Of a stretch of 64,000 nt of DNA, positions 1,060-6,240 are shown piece after piece (position 1 is the first letter of the stretch; each line of letters begins with the position of its first letter). Under the pieces are notes generated by a model. It was not told the DNA's origin. It searched no databases and was given only the letters and a program-made list of their open reading frames with translations. The stretch is from Candidatus Aquidulcis sp. (lineage in GTDB: Bacteria > Chloroflexota > Anaerolineae > UBA4142): NCBI GenBank assembly GCA_020723345.1, contig DYJA01000016.1:1-64000 (forward strand), read 5' to 3'. Position numbers and translations under genes: made by a program.

Positions 1060-1088
1060 TTGAAAACCATCCGTACCTATGTTATACT
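1060..1088 (+). promoter_or_regulatory. Sigma70-type promoter for the Ig-domain lipoprotein gene
   Basis: A -35 box TTGAAA (1060-1065) and a -10 box TATACT (1083-1088) are separated by exactly 17 bp. Transcription would start near 1095, leaving a leader of about 58 nt that carries the AAAGGAGG ribosome-binding site at 1141-1148. Confidence 0.6.
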
Positions 1089-1152
1089 CACATCAGTCGC
1101 CATGCTGCGCGACCTCTCCAGCCATTCCACCCGCTCATTCAAAGGAGGAACT

Positions 1153-2466
1153 TTGAAGATTCGACGGTTCAACGCTCTACCGAAATTTTTGTTTGCATTT
1201 TTACTGCTCCTTCCAACTGTAACCGCGTGCAGTGTTTTCGCCGGCAAGCCCACCGTCATCATCGCGTCGCCGCCGAGCGGCAGTCAATTCCGCGAAAACG
1301 AAGAAGTCGCGGTGCAATCCACTTCGACCGATTCCTCCGGCGTTGCGCGCGTCGAGTTGTTGATCGACGGTACAGTCGTCCGCACCGATCCATCGCCCAG
1401 TCCCCAAGTCTCGTTCACGCTGATTCAAACGTGGAAAGCGACGCCCGGCACGCACACGATCAGCGTGCGCGCGTACAACACTTCCGGCGCGGTCAGCGAA
1501 CCAGCCGCCGTCTCGATCTCCGTCGCGCAAGTCACGGTGCCGGTGCTGATCACGCCCACGCCGATCGGCGCGCCCACGCCCATCGCCGCGGCAACTGCGA
1601 CGACTGCGCCAGCCGGTTGCGCGAACGACGCGCAATTCGACCGCGACGTCACCGTTCCCGATGGCACAACCTACGCGGCGGGCCAAACCTTCGACAAGGT
1701 CTGGCGACTTTCCAACAAAGGCACGTGCGCGTGGGGCGCGGGCTATCAATTCGTTTTCGTCGGCGGTACGGCAATGACGACGAACACCGTCGTGAACGTC
1801 CCGGCAACTGCGTCGGGCGCGACGGCGGATCTCAAAGTTTCGATGACCGCGCCGAGCACGCCGGGTACCTACACCGGGACGTGGCAAATGCGTTCGTCGA
1901 CCGGTACACTTTTTGGCGCGCGCGTCACCGTGAAAATCGTCGTGCCCGGCCCGACCGGTTGTGTCGGCACACCGAACATCGCGTCGTTCAGCGCGTCGGC
2001 GACGACGATCACCGCCGGGACGGCGATCACGCTCAACTGGGGCGCGGTCACCGGCGCAGAATCGGCGGAAATCGATCAAGGGATCGGCGGCGTCGAAACG
2101 CCCGGCTCGCGCGTTGTGAATCCCACGACGACGACGACGTACACGCTGACCGCGAAATGCGGCGCGAACGTCCGAACTGCCAAAGTGACGATCACCGTCA
2201 ACCCCGCGCCGGTCGCGTGCAGCGGCATGCCGGTCATCACGATGTTCTCCGCGGCGAATACCTCGATCAAAGCAGGAACTTCGACGACATTGAACTGGGG
2301 ATTGGTCAGTAACGCCGATTCAGTTGAGATCAATCAAGGCATCGGCGGCGTCGCGACGCCCGGCTCTGCGAGCATTTCGCCGATTACGAACACAACGTAC
2401 ATTCTGACCGCAAAATGCGGAACAAATATCGACACGCGCCAAGTCCCGATCACCGTGACTCCGTAA
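1153..2466 (+). CDS. Secreted lipoprotein with NBR1-type and PKD-like Ig domains
   Basis: This is a 437-residue lipoprotein of unknown ligand. The TTG start at 1153 is chosen because AAAGGAGG ends five bases upstream and the N-terminus then becomes a clean lipoprotein signal (LPKFLFAFLLLLPTVTAC, Cys about residue 26). After it come an Ig-like domain (KPTVIIASPPSGSQF...), a short TP-rich linker, an NBR1-type Ig-like domain (NDAQFDRDVTVPDGTTYAAG...WRLSNKGTCAW) and two tandem beta-sandwich repeats sharing the core LNWGAVTGAESAEIDQGIGG. The family is common on Chloroflexota cell surfaces and may mediate adhesion or scaffolding. The next gene is a paralogue. Confidence 0.82.
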   Translation: MKIRRFNALPKFLFAFLLLLPTVTACSVFAGKPTVIIASPPSGSQFRENEEVAVQSTSTDSSGVARVELLIDGTVVRTDPSPSPQVSFTLIQTWKATPGTHTISVRAYNTSGAVSEPAAVSISVAQVTVPVLITPTPIGAPTPIAAATATTAPAGCANDAQFDRDVTVPDGTTYAAGQTFDKVWRLSNKGTCAWGAGYQFVFVGGTAMTTNTVVNVPATASGATADLKVSMTAPSTPGTYTGTWQMRSSTGTLFGARVTVKIVVPGPTGCVGTPNIASFSASATTITAGTAITLNWGAVTGAESAEIDQGIGGVETPGSRVVNPTTTTTYTLTAKCGANVRTAKVTITVNPAPVACSGMPVITMFSAANTSIKAGTSTTLNWGLVSNADSVEINQGIGGVATPGSASISPITNTTYILTAKCGTNIDTRQVPITVTP

Positions 2467-2476
2467 CCGGACCAAG

Positions 2477-2545
2477 GTAGGGGCAATCCTGTGTGATTGC
2501 CCTATAACCGAATAAAGAACGAGGCAATCCGATGTGATTGCCCAA
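2477..2545. repeat. Short direct repeats with internal dyads between paralogous lipoprotein genes
   Basis: Two near-identical units, GGCAATCCTGTGTGATTGCC and GGCAATCCGATGTGATTGCC, lie about 40 bp apart in the 120-bp spacer. Each is an imperfect palindrome (GGCAATC...GATTGCC) and could form a small stem-loop. They resemble other dispersed repeats in the window. No transcription terminator with a T-run is evident. Confidence 0.6.
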
Positions 2546-2586
2546 ATCGCATTCACGCATTTGTTTCTACAAAGGGGGGTAGACAG

Positions 2587-4305
2587 ATGGAACTACGTAC
2601 GCGTCTCGTTGTTACTTTATCTGTGCTCTGGCTTGCGCTGTTAGCCGCGTGTGCGGCAGCCGGCAAGCCGAACGTCGTGATCATGTCGCCGCCGAGCGGC
2701 AGTCAATACTTCGAAGGCGAAGACATCGCCGTGCAATCTTCCGCGACCGACGCGACCGGCGTCGTGCGCGTCGAACTCGTCGTGGATGGCGCGGTCGTGC
2801 GCGTCGATCCGTCGCCGACCGCGCAGGGGCAGCCGACGTTTACGCTGATTCAAACTTGGAAGGCGACCGGCGGCGTTCACACGATTCTCGTGCGCGCGTA
2901 CAACGCGTCGGGCGCGGTCAGCGATCCGGCGGGCGTGTCGGTGAACGTCTTGCAAAGAGTCGCGCAAGCGCCCACGCCCACGCCGACGATTCCGAGCGCG
3001 CCGCCGCCGCCAGGGATCACGCCGCCTTCGCCGGTTCCGCCGACCATGGCTCCATCGCCCACCTCGCCGCCGCCGGGTCCATCGTCTTGCACGAACACCG
3101 CCGCGTTCGTTCAAGATGTGACGGTACCGGATGGAACGAATTGGGCACCCGGGCAGGCGTTCAACAAGATTTGGCAAGTGCGAAATACCGGCACCTGCAC
3201 CTGGTCGGGTTATCAACTCGTCTTCGCGAGTGGCGAAGCGATGACGACAAACTCGACTGCCGCGGTGCCAAGCACCGCGCCCGGCGCGACCGCGGATATT
3301 TTGGTCCCGATGACCGCGCCATCGAGCACCGGAGCGCACGCCGGTCAATGGCGTTTGAAAAGCCCATCCGGTCTGTTTGGTCCAACGCTGTCGGTGAGTA
3401 TTGTCGTGGTCGGCGGCGGTGGCGGCAGCCCACCATCGGGCGGGTGCAGTGGAACGCCAAACATCGCGTCGTTCACTTCGTCAGCCGCGTCGGTCACTTC
3501 TGGAAATCCGGTCACGCTGAATTGGGGTGCAGTGACGAATGCCGAATCAGCCGAAATCGATCAAGGGATCGGCGGCATCGAAACGCCCGGCTCGCGCGTG
3601 GTCAATCCGACGGTGTACACGACCTACACGCTGACCGCGCGGTGCGGCGCGAATGTCGCGACGCGGCAAGTCACCATCGCGGTTCTTGCGCCGCCAGTCG
3701 CCGTGCCTCCGGCACCCTCTTTGTCATCGCCAGCCGAAGGGTGGGTTTTTCGGAATTTCCCGCGCACTGCGACATTCTCGTGGAACACGGTCAGTGCTCC
3801 CGGTACCGTAACCTATAACATCGAAATCCAGATCAACACCGGGTCGTGGCAAAACAAAGTCACTCAAACAGGAATCGCAGGCACGAATTATGCCATGTCC
3901 GCTTTCTCTGGAGACAACCAAGGGCGCTGGCGCGTCTGGGCGACGAGTTCAACCGCCGGCGAAGGCGCGAAGAGCGATTGGCGTGGATTTTCGTTCAATA
4001 CCGGCGCGTCGCAGTACGCTGGTACATGGCTGAATAACGATTCGGGAACATCCGGCGTGACGAGGATCATCATCAGTAATTCCGGTCAAACGCTGAATGT
4101 TCACCCCTATGGCAAATGTACTCCGACGGATTGTAATTGGGGCACCAAATCCCAGACATTCAGTGGAGAACCGTTTGTCATTAGTGGTTTTCCAAGTGGA
4201 GGGTCACATCAACTCACTATCACGCTAAATAATGCTGCCGGTACCAGTCTCAAAGCCGTTGATTTCAATGGCACAAGTACTTTCACCTACTACTTCCACA
4301 AGTAG
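2587..4305 (+). CDS. Secreted lipoprotein with Ig-like, NBR1-type, PKD-like and C-terminal beta domains
   Basis: This 572-residue paralogue of the preceding gene starts at ATG 2587, eight bases after an AAAGGGGGG ribosome-binding site; the signal MELRTRLVVTLSVLWLALLA ends at a lipobox Cys (LLAAC, about residue 22). Order: Ig-like domain (NVVIMSPPSGSQYFEGEDIA), Pro-rich linker (about 120-165), NBR1-type Ig domain (AAFVQDVTVPDGTNWAPGQ), a PKD-like repeat with LNWGAVTNAESAEIDQGIGG, a fibronectin-like domain, and a C-terminal beta domain containing GTWLNNDSGTSGVTRI and YGKCTPTDCNWG. The last two domains are absent from the neighbour, so the pair arose by duplication and C-terminal domain gain or loss. 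It is probably surface exposed; the ligand is unknown. Confidence 0.82.
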   Translation: MELRTRLVVTLSVLWLALLAACAAAGKPNVVIMSPPSGSQYFEGEDIAVQSSATDATGVVRVELVVDGAVVRVDPSPTAQGQPTFTLIQTWKATGGVHTILVRAYNASGAVSDPAGVSVNVLQRVAQAPTPTPTIPSAPPPPGITPPSPVPPTMAPSPTSPPPGPSSCTNTAAFVQDVTVPDGTNWAPGQAFNKIWQVRNTGTCTWSGYQLVFASGEAMTTNSTAAVPSTAPGATADILVPMTAPSSTGAHAGQWRLKSPSGLFGPTLSVSIVVVGGGGGSPPSGGCSGTPNIASFTSSAASVTSGNPVTLNWGAVTNAESAEIDQGIGGIETPGSRVVNPTVYTTYTLTARCGANVATRQVTIAVLAPPVAVPPAPSLSSPAEGWVFRNFPRTATFSWNTVSAPGTVTYNIEIQINTGSWQNKVTQTGIAGTNYAMSAFSGDNQGRWRVWATSSTAGEGAKSDWRGFSFNTGASQYAGTWLNNDSGTSGVTRIIISNSGQTLNVHPYGKCTPTDCNWGTKSQTFSGEPFVISGFPSGGSHQLTITLNNAAGTSLKAVDFNGTSTFTYYFHK

Positions 4306-4520: not shown

Positions 4521-4549
4521 TTGAAAACGCGCGTGATGTATGCTATACT
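4521..4549 (+). promoter_or_regulatory. Sigma70-type promoter abutting the 182-bp inverted-repeat element
   Basis: TTGAAA (4521-4526) and TATACT (4544-4549) are spaced by 17 bp. The predicted start point, about 4556, falls on the first bases of the terminal repeat of the following element, so transcription would run through the whole element. Confidence 0.5.
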
Positions 4550-4550
4550 C

Positions 4551-4732
4551 GGCATGGTTCAAGTTAGCTTGACACTTTTCCAGGACAGAAGACTTGGCGA
4601 ACTGGACATAAGAGTCAAGAATCCACAGTTTTATGCTCAAAATAGCCACTTCGAGGCACTTGGTTGCCGAAAAATTTCCGAACCGTTGTGCAAAAGTGTC
4701 AATCTAACTTTTCAGAGTTTTTGAACCATGCC
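4551..4732. mobile_element. 182-bp MITE-like element with terminal inverted repeats, or a structured ncRNA
   Basis: The ends are inverted copies of GGCATGGTTCAA (4551-4562 and 4721-4732), and just inside them is a second, 19-bp inverted match, AAGTTAGCTTGACACTTTT (4561-4579) against AAAAGTGTCAATCTAACTT (4692-4710), with one mismatch. The interior has no reading frame of note and is AT-richer than its surroundings. This architecture fits a miniature inverted-repeat transposable element left by an insertion sequence. Because a strong promoter fires into it, a closed-stem RNA of about 175 nt is the alternative. The 177 bp between it and the next gene contain nothing convincing. Confidence 0.5.
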
Positions 4733-4909
4733 CTATACTCTGCCCAAGCATTTCGATTTGAATGTTATGGAGAGGAGGCGCCCGGCGATTATCAAATTGA
4801 AATTGGCTTTGACCTCATCGCTTGTTGTACGTCTCAGTGCTCGCGCTTGATCGTGGACGACCCCCGACTATTTTAGACCGGGGTAACCTATTCGGTTCAA
4901 ACGGAGGAC

Positions 4910-5161
4910 ATGATGAGCGAATTGTTGGACACCCTGCTGGGATTGGCGACGCCCATCTTGCTCGCGGCGCCCAAGAAAAAAGTCGCGAAGAAAAAAGCGG
5001 CGCCCAAGAAAAAAGCCGTGAAGAAGGCGGCGCCCAAGAAAAAAGCCGTGAAGAAAGCCGCGCCCGCACCTGCCGTTGCAGCCGCCCCGGCACCGCCCCC
5101 GCCACCTCCACCGCCGCCTGCCGCGCCAGTCCCGCCGCCCACCACGCCGACCTGGCCATAA
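4910..5161 (+). CDS. Small protein with histone-H1-like Lys/Ala/Pro-rich tail
   Basis: An 83-residue protein starts at ATG 4910 (or 4913) behind ACGGAGGAC. Residues 1-20 (MMSELLDTLLGLATPILLAA) are hydrophobic. They are followed by three to four copies of a PKKKAVKKAA-type unit and a Pro/Ala-rich end with a run of nine prolines. The basic repeats match the style of bacterial histone-H1-like or AlgP-like tails that bind DNA or other polyanions. The hydrophobic start could instead be a membrane or signal segment. The next gene repeats the same plan. Function is not established. Confidence 0.6.
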   Translation: MMSELLDTLLGLATPILLAAPKKKVAKKKAAPKKKAVKKAAPKKKAVKKAAPAPAVAAAPAPPPPPPPPPAAPVPPPTTPTWP

Positions 5162-5177
5162 GGGACATGGCAGATTG

Positions 5178-5786
5178 ATGAGTTTGATTGCAGATTGGAT
5201 CCTGTGCGCCGCGCGCCCGCTCGTTCTAGCGGCAACCAAAAGCAAACGCAAGCCGATCAAAAAAAGCGGCAAGCGTCCTGCTCCCGCCGCGCGTTCGCGC
5301 GTCAAACGCGCGCACAGCAAAAAAACGCGCGCAAAAAAAGCGGCGCGTCCGACCAAGCCCGGACCGCGCCGCGTTGCGCGCGGTAAACCAGTCGCCGGAC
5401 GCGCGCGCGCGCCACTGCGCGCTCCGGTCGCTCCGGCGGCTGCGCCCAAACCGGCGGAACCCGCGCCGCCGCCGAAACCCGTTCCGCCGATCGGACGCGC
5501 GATCTTGCTCTCGCCCGAAAACGAAAAATTCGTGGACAGTTTTCATCCCACTTTCCGGTGGCTTTCGGTCGGGGGCGCGACACGGTACGAAATCGCGTGG
5601 GGCGAGGATCCTGCCTTGACTGCGAGTCATACGCTTCTTTCGATCGCAACGGAAGCGACAGTGCCGGCAGAAGAGACCTTGCGGCTCGGGGTAACGTACT
5701 TTTGGCGCGTCCGCGGAGGCAACGAAAGCGGCTGGGGGCCCTGGTCGGCGATTGCCTCGTTTCGCGTCTTGGAAGAAATTCCGTAA
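5178..5786 (+). CDS. Basic-tailed protein with C-terminal fibronectin-III-like domain
   Basis: This 202-residue protein begins at ATG 5178, 16 bp after the preceding gene and probably in one operon with it. It has the same layout: a short hydrophobic start (MSLIADWILCAARPLVLAAT), then a strongly basic Lys/Arg/Ala-rich stretch (about 21-85) and a Pro-rich linker. From about residue 105 a beta-sandwich follows (ILLSPENEKFVDSFHPTFRW ... VTYFWRVRGGNESGWGPWS), which looks like a fibronectin-III-type domain. No enzyme motif is visible. It could tether to DNA, lipid headgroups or cell-wall polyanions through the basic part. Confidence 0.6.
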   Translation: MSLIADWILCAARPLVLAATKSKRKPIKKSGKRPAPAARSRVKRAHSKKTRAKKAARPTKPGPRRVARGKPVAGRARAPLRAPVAPAAAPKPAEPAPPPKPVPPIGRAILLSPENEKFVDSFHPTFRWLSVGGATRYEIAWGEDPALTASHTLLSIATEATVPAEETLRLGVTYFWRVRGGNESGWGPWSAIASFRVLEEIP

Positions 5787-5885
5787 GTTGTATGACCGAT
5801 CATGTTGGCGAGGCAACCTTCGTTCTCTTGCGTCGAGTACGAAGTTGCCTTGCCTTTTTATCTCTTACCGGCGCGCGCAAACTAT

Positions 5886-5914
5886 TTTACAAAACTTGTC
5901 AACTCGCCTATAAT
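5886..5914 (+). promoter_or_regulatory. Near-consensus promoter for the acidic Cys-motif protein
   Basis: TTTACA (5886-5891) and TATAAT (5909-5914) are 17 bp apart. The predicted start is near 5921, giving a leader of about 40 nt that contains AAGGAGG just before ATG 5962. Confidence 0.7.
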
Positions 5915-5961
5915 AGCGTCGCTCCAAACCCGGACAATTCTTATTTCAAGGAGGCTGGCTG

Positions 5962-6240
5962 ATGACACGCATTCGATGCCGTGAGCGGCGGTGCATTTTT
6001 AACAAGAACGGCATTTGCGCTAGTGACGAAATCGAATACGAGCCGGACGCGGGCTGCCTGACGATGGAAGCGCGCGAAGATGCTGCTGATGAAGACGAAG
6101 CATGGGAAGACGAAGACCTGGACGCGGATCTCGAAGAAGAATTGGAAGATGAAGAGGATGAAGCGGACGAGGACGAAGAGTGGGAAGACGAATCCGATGA
6201 CGAAGACGAATACCTGGGCAGTCGTCCGCGAAGACGCTAG
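5962..6240 (+). CDS. Small DUF1540-like Cys-motif protein with a polyacidic tail
   Basis: A 92-residue protein starts at ATG 5962 behind AAGGAGG and a strong promoter. Residues 4-34 carry a four-Cys pattern (IRCRERRCIFNKNGICASDE ... GCLTME), reminiscent of the metal-binding DUF1540 family. The remainder (about 38-85) is almost entirely Asp and Glu, ending GSRPRRR. The very acidic tail contrasts with the basic tails of the two genes just upstream, so an electrostatic partnership is possible but unproven. No homologous function can be named from sequence alone. Confidence 0.6.
   Translation: MTRIRCRERRCIFNKNGICASDEIEYEPDAGCLTMEAREDAADEDEAWEDEDLDADLEEELEDEEDEADEDEEWEDESDDEDEYLGSRPRRR

Follow-up and report, generated by a model that had tools for sequence, protein, structure and literature searches.

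The window analyzed here is the whole 64,000-nucleotide stretch of DNA, which belongs to contig C14 of the MAG G000 (6.3 Mb). Three adjacent genes, designated A, B and C, lie within it together with their candidate transcription signals and a MITE (Table 1). The original prediction had described A and B as sharing a hydrophobic start followed by a Lys/Ala/Pro-rich stretch, and C as joining a Cys motif to a nearly pure Asp/Glu tail; open reading frames, net charges and alignments agreed with both descriptions. In comparisons with relatives, whole-gene dN for the three genes was about 0.2-0.5, and dS ranged from about 1 to saturated. Because amino-acid-changing substitution falls well under silent substitution, these comparisons indicate that A, B and C are genuine conserved genes and not products of chance ORF composition.

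Table 1. Coordinates of the genes and associated features at the A-B-C locus of the window.
Feature	Position	Strand	Description and basis
A-B promoter	4521..4549	+	TTGAAA-17-TATACT, extended -10 (GATGTATGC); consensus scan 10/12
MITE, 182 bp	4551..4732		12-bp terminal inverted repeats; interrupts the A-B promoter at its -10 region
Gene A	4913..5161	+	82-aa basic protein; ORF, alignment A2, dN<dS, 30-bp tandem repeat
Gene B	5178..5786	+	202-aa protein; ORF, alignment A1, Pfam fn3, AlphaFold model, Foldseek
Probable intrinsic terminator of the A-B unit	5807..5854	+	Hairpin, then TTTTTAT; RNA fold -32.6 kcal/mol, z -3.86 (shuffles of the window sequence)
C promoter	5886..5914	+	TTTACA-17-TATAAT; 11/12 consensus match
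Gene C	5962..6240	+	92-aa protein, classed by sequence as probable divergent DUF1540; ORF, alignment A3, DUF1540 matches

Gene A probably begins at the second ATG of its frame (4913), since the alignment of its relatives starts at that Met. The encoded protein (net charge +14) opens with a hydrophobic N-terminus, continues through a 10-residue repeat of the AAPKKKAVKK type, present in approximately three copies, and closes with a Pro-rich end, its Lys/Ala/Pro tail being encoded by 3.3 copies of the tandem repeat. Across nine A proteins, the composition was 13-24% K, 14-35% A and 18-27% P. It was noted that the residues ahead of the hydrophobic stretch of A are acidic or neutral and that dense Lys follows behind it, which is the opposite of the charge order of a signal peptide. 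Net positive side-chain charge before the hydrophobic core, corresponding to the basic n-region of a Sec signal peptide, was found in 0/9 A proteins, and the B proteins were mixed in this respect (alignments and listings inspected by eye). The hydrophobic segment of A ends in an Ala-rich sequence resembling a cleavage site. No Pfam family was matched by A, and NCBIfam rows appeared at chance level only. Alignment A2 was made without the A of G004, which is frameshifted inside the Lys-rich repeat (L046:5991-6208), and the A of G013 is out of sight because the contig begins inside B. The G004 frameshift may be an assembly error or genuine decay.

Gene B (net charge +23) shares the first part of this plan, with a hydrophobic N-terminus and a Lys/Arg/Ala/Pro linker, and ends in a predicted fibronectin-III (FN3) domain at residues ~104-200. 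The original prediction had treated B as a second protein with a basic tail; the hydrophobic start and the Lys-rich stretch stood up, and the C-terminal domain had been overlooked. The Pfam fn3 model matched 15/15 aligned B members (E<=0.1; best 8.3e-8), with the B of the window scoring 17.7 bits, under the Pfam cut-off of 25, and Pfam families other than FN3/Ig were not found. In the AlphaFold model, residues 101-200 reached a pLDDT of 87-95, and FN3 chains headed the Foldseek list for this model (best E 2.6e-6). From the profile matches and the model, we assign a fibronectin-III fold to the C-terminal part of B. Compared with the FN3 family (PF00041), B is distinctive in carrying just one such domain after a strongly basic linker and in showing no recognisable signal peptide. 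The N-terminal half had a pLDDT of about 50 and no confident structure. The lowest dN within B was found in the FN3 domain (0.12-0.27), and the highest in the basic linker (0.37-1.05).

The N-terminal segment of B varies considerably in alignment A1, even inside the family of the window (f1). In the sister family (f2), B has no hydrophobic start, and scant upstream space for one; its basic N-terminus carries a GVVGxLKK-type amphipathic segment. In both A and B of the window, Lys-rich sequence comes after an opening run of about 16-20 hydrophobic residues. When the A and B N-termini were compared, the mean local score was 27.3, relative to a mean of 15.6 and a maximum of 18.4 in 1000 shuffles; the sequences within each set are kin, and hence the comparison carries no formal probability. 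The B of G010, which is cut by a contig end, was used in this comparison and left out of alignment A1. This N-terminal likeness in f1 is consistent with an origin of A from the first half of B.

Gene C (net charge -30) encodes a C-x4-C-x7-C-x12-C head and a polyacidic tail. All four Cys residues (C6, C11, C19 and C32) were invariant in the 20/20 proteins of alignment A3, from which the C of L053 was omitted owing to its shortened in-frame tail; in that G011 frame (L053:3188-3400), translation ends early past the third Cys, and the acidic tail is missing. DUF1540 (PF07561) was matched in 17/20 aligned C orthologues (E<=0.1; best 2.3e-6) and was the sole family matched by most members. The proteins of this family are, like C, small with four conserved Cys; the C of the window differs in scoring below the profile cut-off (13.6 bits relative to 22.1) and in its conserved polyacidic tail. 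Matches over the cut-off were recorded in 5/100 class genomes, all five being C orthologues by position. These profile matches lead us to classify C as a probable divergent DUF1540-type protein, and it is probably an independent protein whose four Cys serve metal binding or disulfide chemistry. AlphaFold gave C a mean pLDDT of 55.7 and no confident fold. CdeA of the C. difficile exosporium is one of the small four-Cys members of DUF1540. One paper describes the function of DUF1540 as unassigned, and one places some Firmicutes DUF1540 proteins beside bd oxidase genes. The Cys head of C is under tighter constraint than its acidic tail, and the lower constraint on the B linker and C tail suggests that these tails are maintained as composition more than as sequence.

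We assessed the transcription signals around the three genes. The A-B promoter element was conserved upstream of A in 9/10 aligned relatives and was missing in L047. A and B are separated by 16 nt in the window, and their stop and start codons overlap as GTGA in L045 and L049. In 8/8 genomes in which B and C are adjacent, B is followed by a strong hairpin (-32 to -44 kcal/mol, first 110 nt), with a weak T-run in L042 and L056; a simple terminator scan missed the hairpin of the window because its loop lies outside the limits of the scan. The promoter that the original prediction had attributed to C was recovered, with a promoter-like element 44-50 nt 5' of C in the same 8/8 genomes. Given the probable terminator hairpin after B and the distinct promoter ahead of C, the locus is most simply read as two transcription units, A-B and C onwards. 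An A-B-C single operon was rejected on these two elements, and the proposal of the trio as one complementary-charge unit is not supported, given their recurrence. The A-B promoter pattern had a single exact match in its own genome and three more at 2 mismatches, and the C promoter pattern was also unique at full match. A regulon defined by shared promoters was rejected, given that each pattern occurs at full match only at its own locus. A search of the A leader for structured RNA in Rfam returned one sub-threshold match, located elsewhere on the opposite strand, and a defence system was discarded as PADLOC gave no match.

The distribution of the genes was then compared across the order and class. 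B was found in 16/20 order genomes, comprising 11/14 genomes of f1 and 5/6 of f2. Among 396 class genomes, just three weak matches lay outside the order, all to the FN3 part, two of them within open frames longer than 1000 residues and the third within a frame of 234 residues. For named relatives, 13/16 loci with B came from uncultured Anaerolineae/Chloroflexota MAGs, and the remaining 3/16 were weak matches in Bacteroidota and Acidobacteria. A was present in 10/20 genomes searched (a set without G013), every one from f1, and in 0/6 from f2. All f1 genomes with readable DNA upstream of B carried A (10/10, counting the frameshifted G004 copy), and A and B are a co-inherited pair in this family.

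C was detected in 13/14 f1 genomes, 0/6 f2 genomes and 142/396 class genomes, leaving 129 class genomes with C outside f1. B and C were neighbours in 8/14 f1 genomes. They occupy separate contigs in G003, G010 and G011, and Opp peptide-transporter genes lie 3' of B in G003 and G011 and 5' of C in G010 and G011, which places B and C apart in these three genomes. G006 and G009 carried C without A and B, none of the three genes was detected in G007, and the f2 B occurs without A and without C. At C loci outside the order, for which 23 of the 129 genomes were examined, moeA or mobB was nearby in 12, VKOR in 9 and an amidohydrolase-CYTH gene in 9, with at least one of these close to C in 19/23 (flanks of about 0.1 to 7 kb; gene names Pfam-confirmed on one example each). 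Neither the FN3 domain of B nor PgpH was close to C in any of these 23 genomes. The conservation anticipated for the trio thus divides: A and B are inherited together and B often adjoins C in f1, but in related genomes C mostly lies elsewhere. It was also noted that the amidohydrolase beside C in 9/23 genomes is fused with a CYTH domain (L066:1072-3033).

The usual gene order in f1 is an Ig-domain gene, A, B, C, c2, a PgpH-type 7TM-HD gene and ybeY, and the f2 order is an Ig-domain gene, B, c2, pgpH and ybeY. The conserved protein c2 had no Pfam match at 1e-5, and there is too little space for it in the window, G001 and G002. Positions 1060-4305 of the window hold two neighbouring genes whose products start like lipoproteins and carry Big_7 and N_BRCA1_IG (NBR1-type Ig) domains, and relatives of these genes sit 5' of A/B throughout much of the order.

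In outline, A and B resemble PhaF of Pseudomonas putida and AlgP of P. aeruginosa, which are depicted as an N-terminal granule-surface part joined to a disordered DNA-binding Lys/Ala/Pro tail. Both are described as binding DNA and helping to place granules, and they provide precedents for a granule-associated protein whose KPAA-type tail lies on DNA (PMC3574117 and PMC9239181). A has the Lys/Ala/Pro-rich repeat tail that marks the phasin/AlgP H1-like proteins, and neither A nor B has the phasin or AlgP N-terminal domain. A further differs in having ~20 residues before the tail, an AAPKKKAVKK unit in place of KPAA and a Pro-rich end, and B differs in ending with the FN3 domain.

From composition and analogy, we favor a tentative reading, held at somewhat less than an even chance, in which A and B would act as polycation tethers that are expressed together. 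At the N-terminus, a short helix of weak hydrophobicity would dock on a hydrophobic, cytoplasm-facing surface, which could be a storage granule or the inner membrane. The Lys/Ala/Pro stretch, being disordered, would extend into the cytoplasm and grip a polyanion, most likely DNA. The FN3 domain of B, placed past the basic stretch, would probably bind a protein partner, and C would stand outside the scheme as the gene that happens to open the next transcription unit. The reversed charge order in A and the f2 B lacking a hydrophobic start favor cytoplasmic proteins, and the likeness of the tails to AlgP and PhaF favors a polycation tether. The hydrophobic stretch scored between soluble and true transmembrane controls (flat or centred weights), which together with the f2 B favors contact with a hydrophobic surface from the cytoplasmic side. 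DNA binding by A or B found no support in any family model, and Lys-rich low-complexity tails can equally bind RNA, polyphosphate, phospholipid or envelope polymers. The polyanion binding put forward in the original prediction is plausible for A and B, which do form a real pair, whereas the inclusion of C in such a set is not supported.

The main rival to the tether reading is export, in which A and B would begin with a signal sequence, lay their basic stretch on anionic cell-wall or capsule polymers and, in B, present FN3 as an extracellular adhesion module. Bacterial FN3 domains are usually extracellular, and this habit, combined with the upstream Ig-domain, lipoprotein-like genes typical of exported proteins, suggests an envelope setting and weighs against a cytoplasmic tether. 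Mycobacterial HBHA, another Lys/Ala/Pro-tailed protein, is known as a surface adhesin and provides a precedent, as does the cleavage-site-like end of the A segment; one report also describes HBHA as a nucleoid protein. However, the charge distribution around the hydrophobic stretch of A, with no net positive charge before it and many positive residues after, and the f2 form of B fit export poorly, and on the same scale the hydrophobic segment of a Big2 lipoprotein-like protein encoded in the window is far stronger. We regard export as rather unlikely, while still the chief competitor. A and B may instead be phasin-like proteins through which PHA or polyphosphate granules are positioned on the nucleoid, a special case of the tether reading that draws on the outline architecture of PhaF and AlgP; the absence of a phasin domain and a hydrophobic part of ~20 residues in place of a long helix render this improbable.

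A similarly improbable alternative gives A and B a role on RNA or ribosomes, in connection with the downstream pgpH-ybeY genes and in place of a role on DNA. B lies upstream of both genes in the two families, and YbeY, identified here by its family, is an rRNA-maturation endoribonuclease. A terminator nevertheless separates B from the next unit in f1, B lies away from pgpH-ybeY in G003, G010 and G011, and no RNA-binding domain was found in A or B. The least probable reading, to which we assign very little weight, is an opposite-charge chromatin-like or polyanion-exchange set in which C would serve as a DNA mimic or chaperone that strips A and B. The conserved opposite charges and the B-C adjacency in f1 speak for such a set, but the separate terminator and promoter are conserved between B and C, C occurs in 129 class genomes outside f1 with B nearby in 0/23 examined, and C without A/B and B without C are both encountered.

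A more specific form of the tether reading would make A and B an order-specific system in which the cytoplasmic FN3 protein B was part-duplicated in one family into the bare tail A, linking the nucleoid to the membrane or a granule in Anaerolineae-type Chloroflexota; we consider this elaboration quite unlikely. Should the cytoplasmic tether reading hold, this lineage would have its own pair of proteins for organising the nucleoid or granules, in a group for which little cell biology exists, and B would offer an unusual example of an FN3 domain at work inside a bacterial cell. A titles-level search of the literature on Anaerolineae histone-like proteins and Chloroflexi FN3 surfaced nothing on A or B, hinting that the two may be previously undescribed. 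Among Lys-rich tail proteins, the A-B pair represents a lineage-specific variant, and C is an older and separately controlled gene. The separateness of C, an acidic gene of probable DUF1540 type with its own history, demonstrates that charge complementarity and adjacency can mislead.

The MITE jumped recently into the A-B promoter. It is bounded by GGCATGGTTCAA ends and flanked by an 8-bp target duplication, CTATACTC, at 4543-4550 and 4733-4740, and its flanks, when joined without the element, align uninterrupted to L042. Eleven full copies were found in its own genome, all 100% identical and each with an 8-bp duplication; among 19 other genomes searched, short end matches were recorded in G016 only. 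The distal promoter copy remains intact beside the MITE, and transcription could consequently pass through the element. Partial MITE ends with related sequence were also observed at contig ends (C120 and C23). These may be traces of larger parent elements that were left unassembled.
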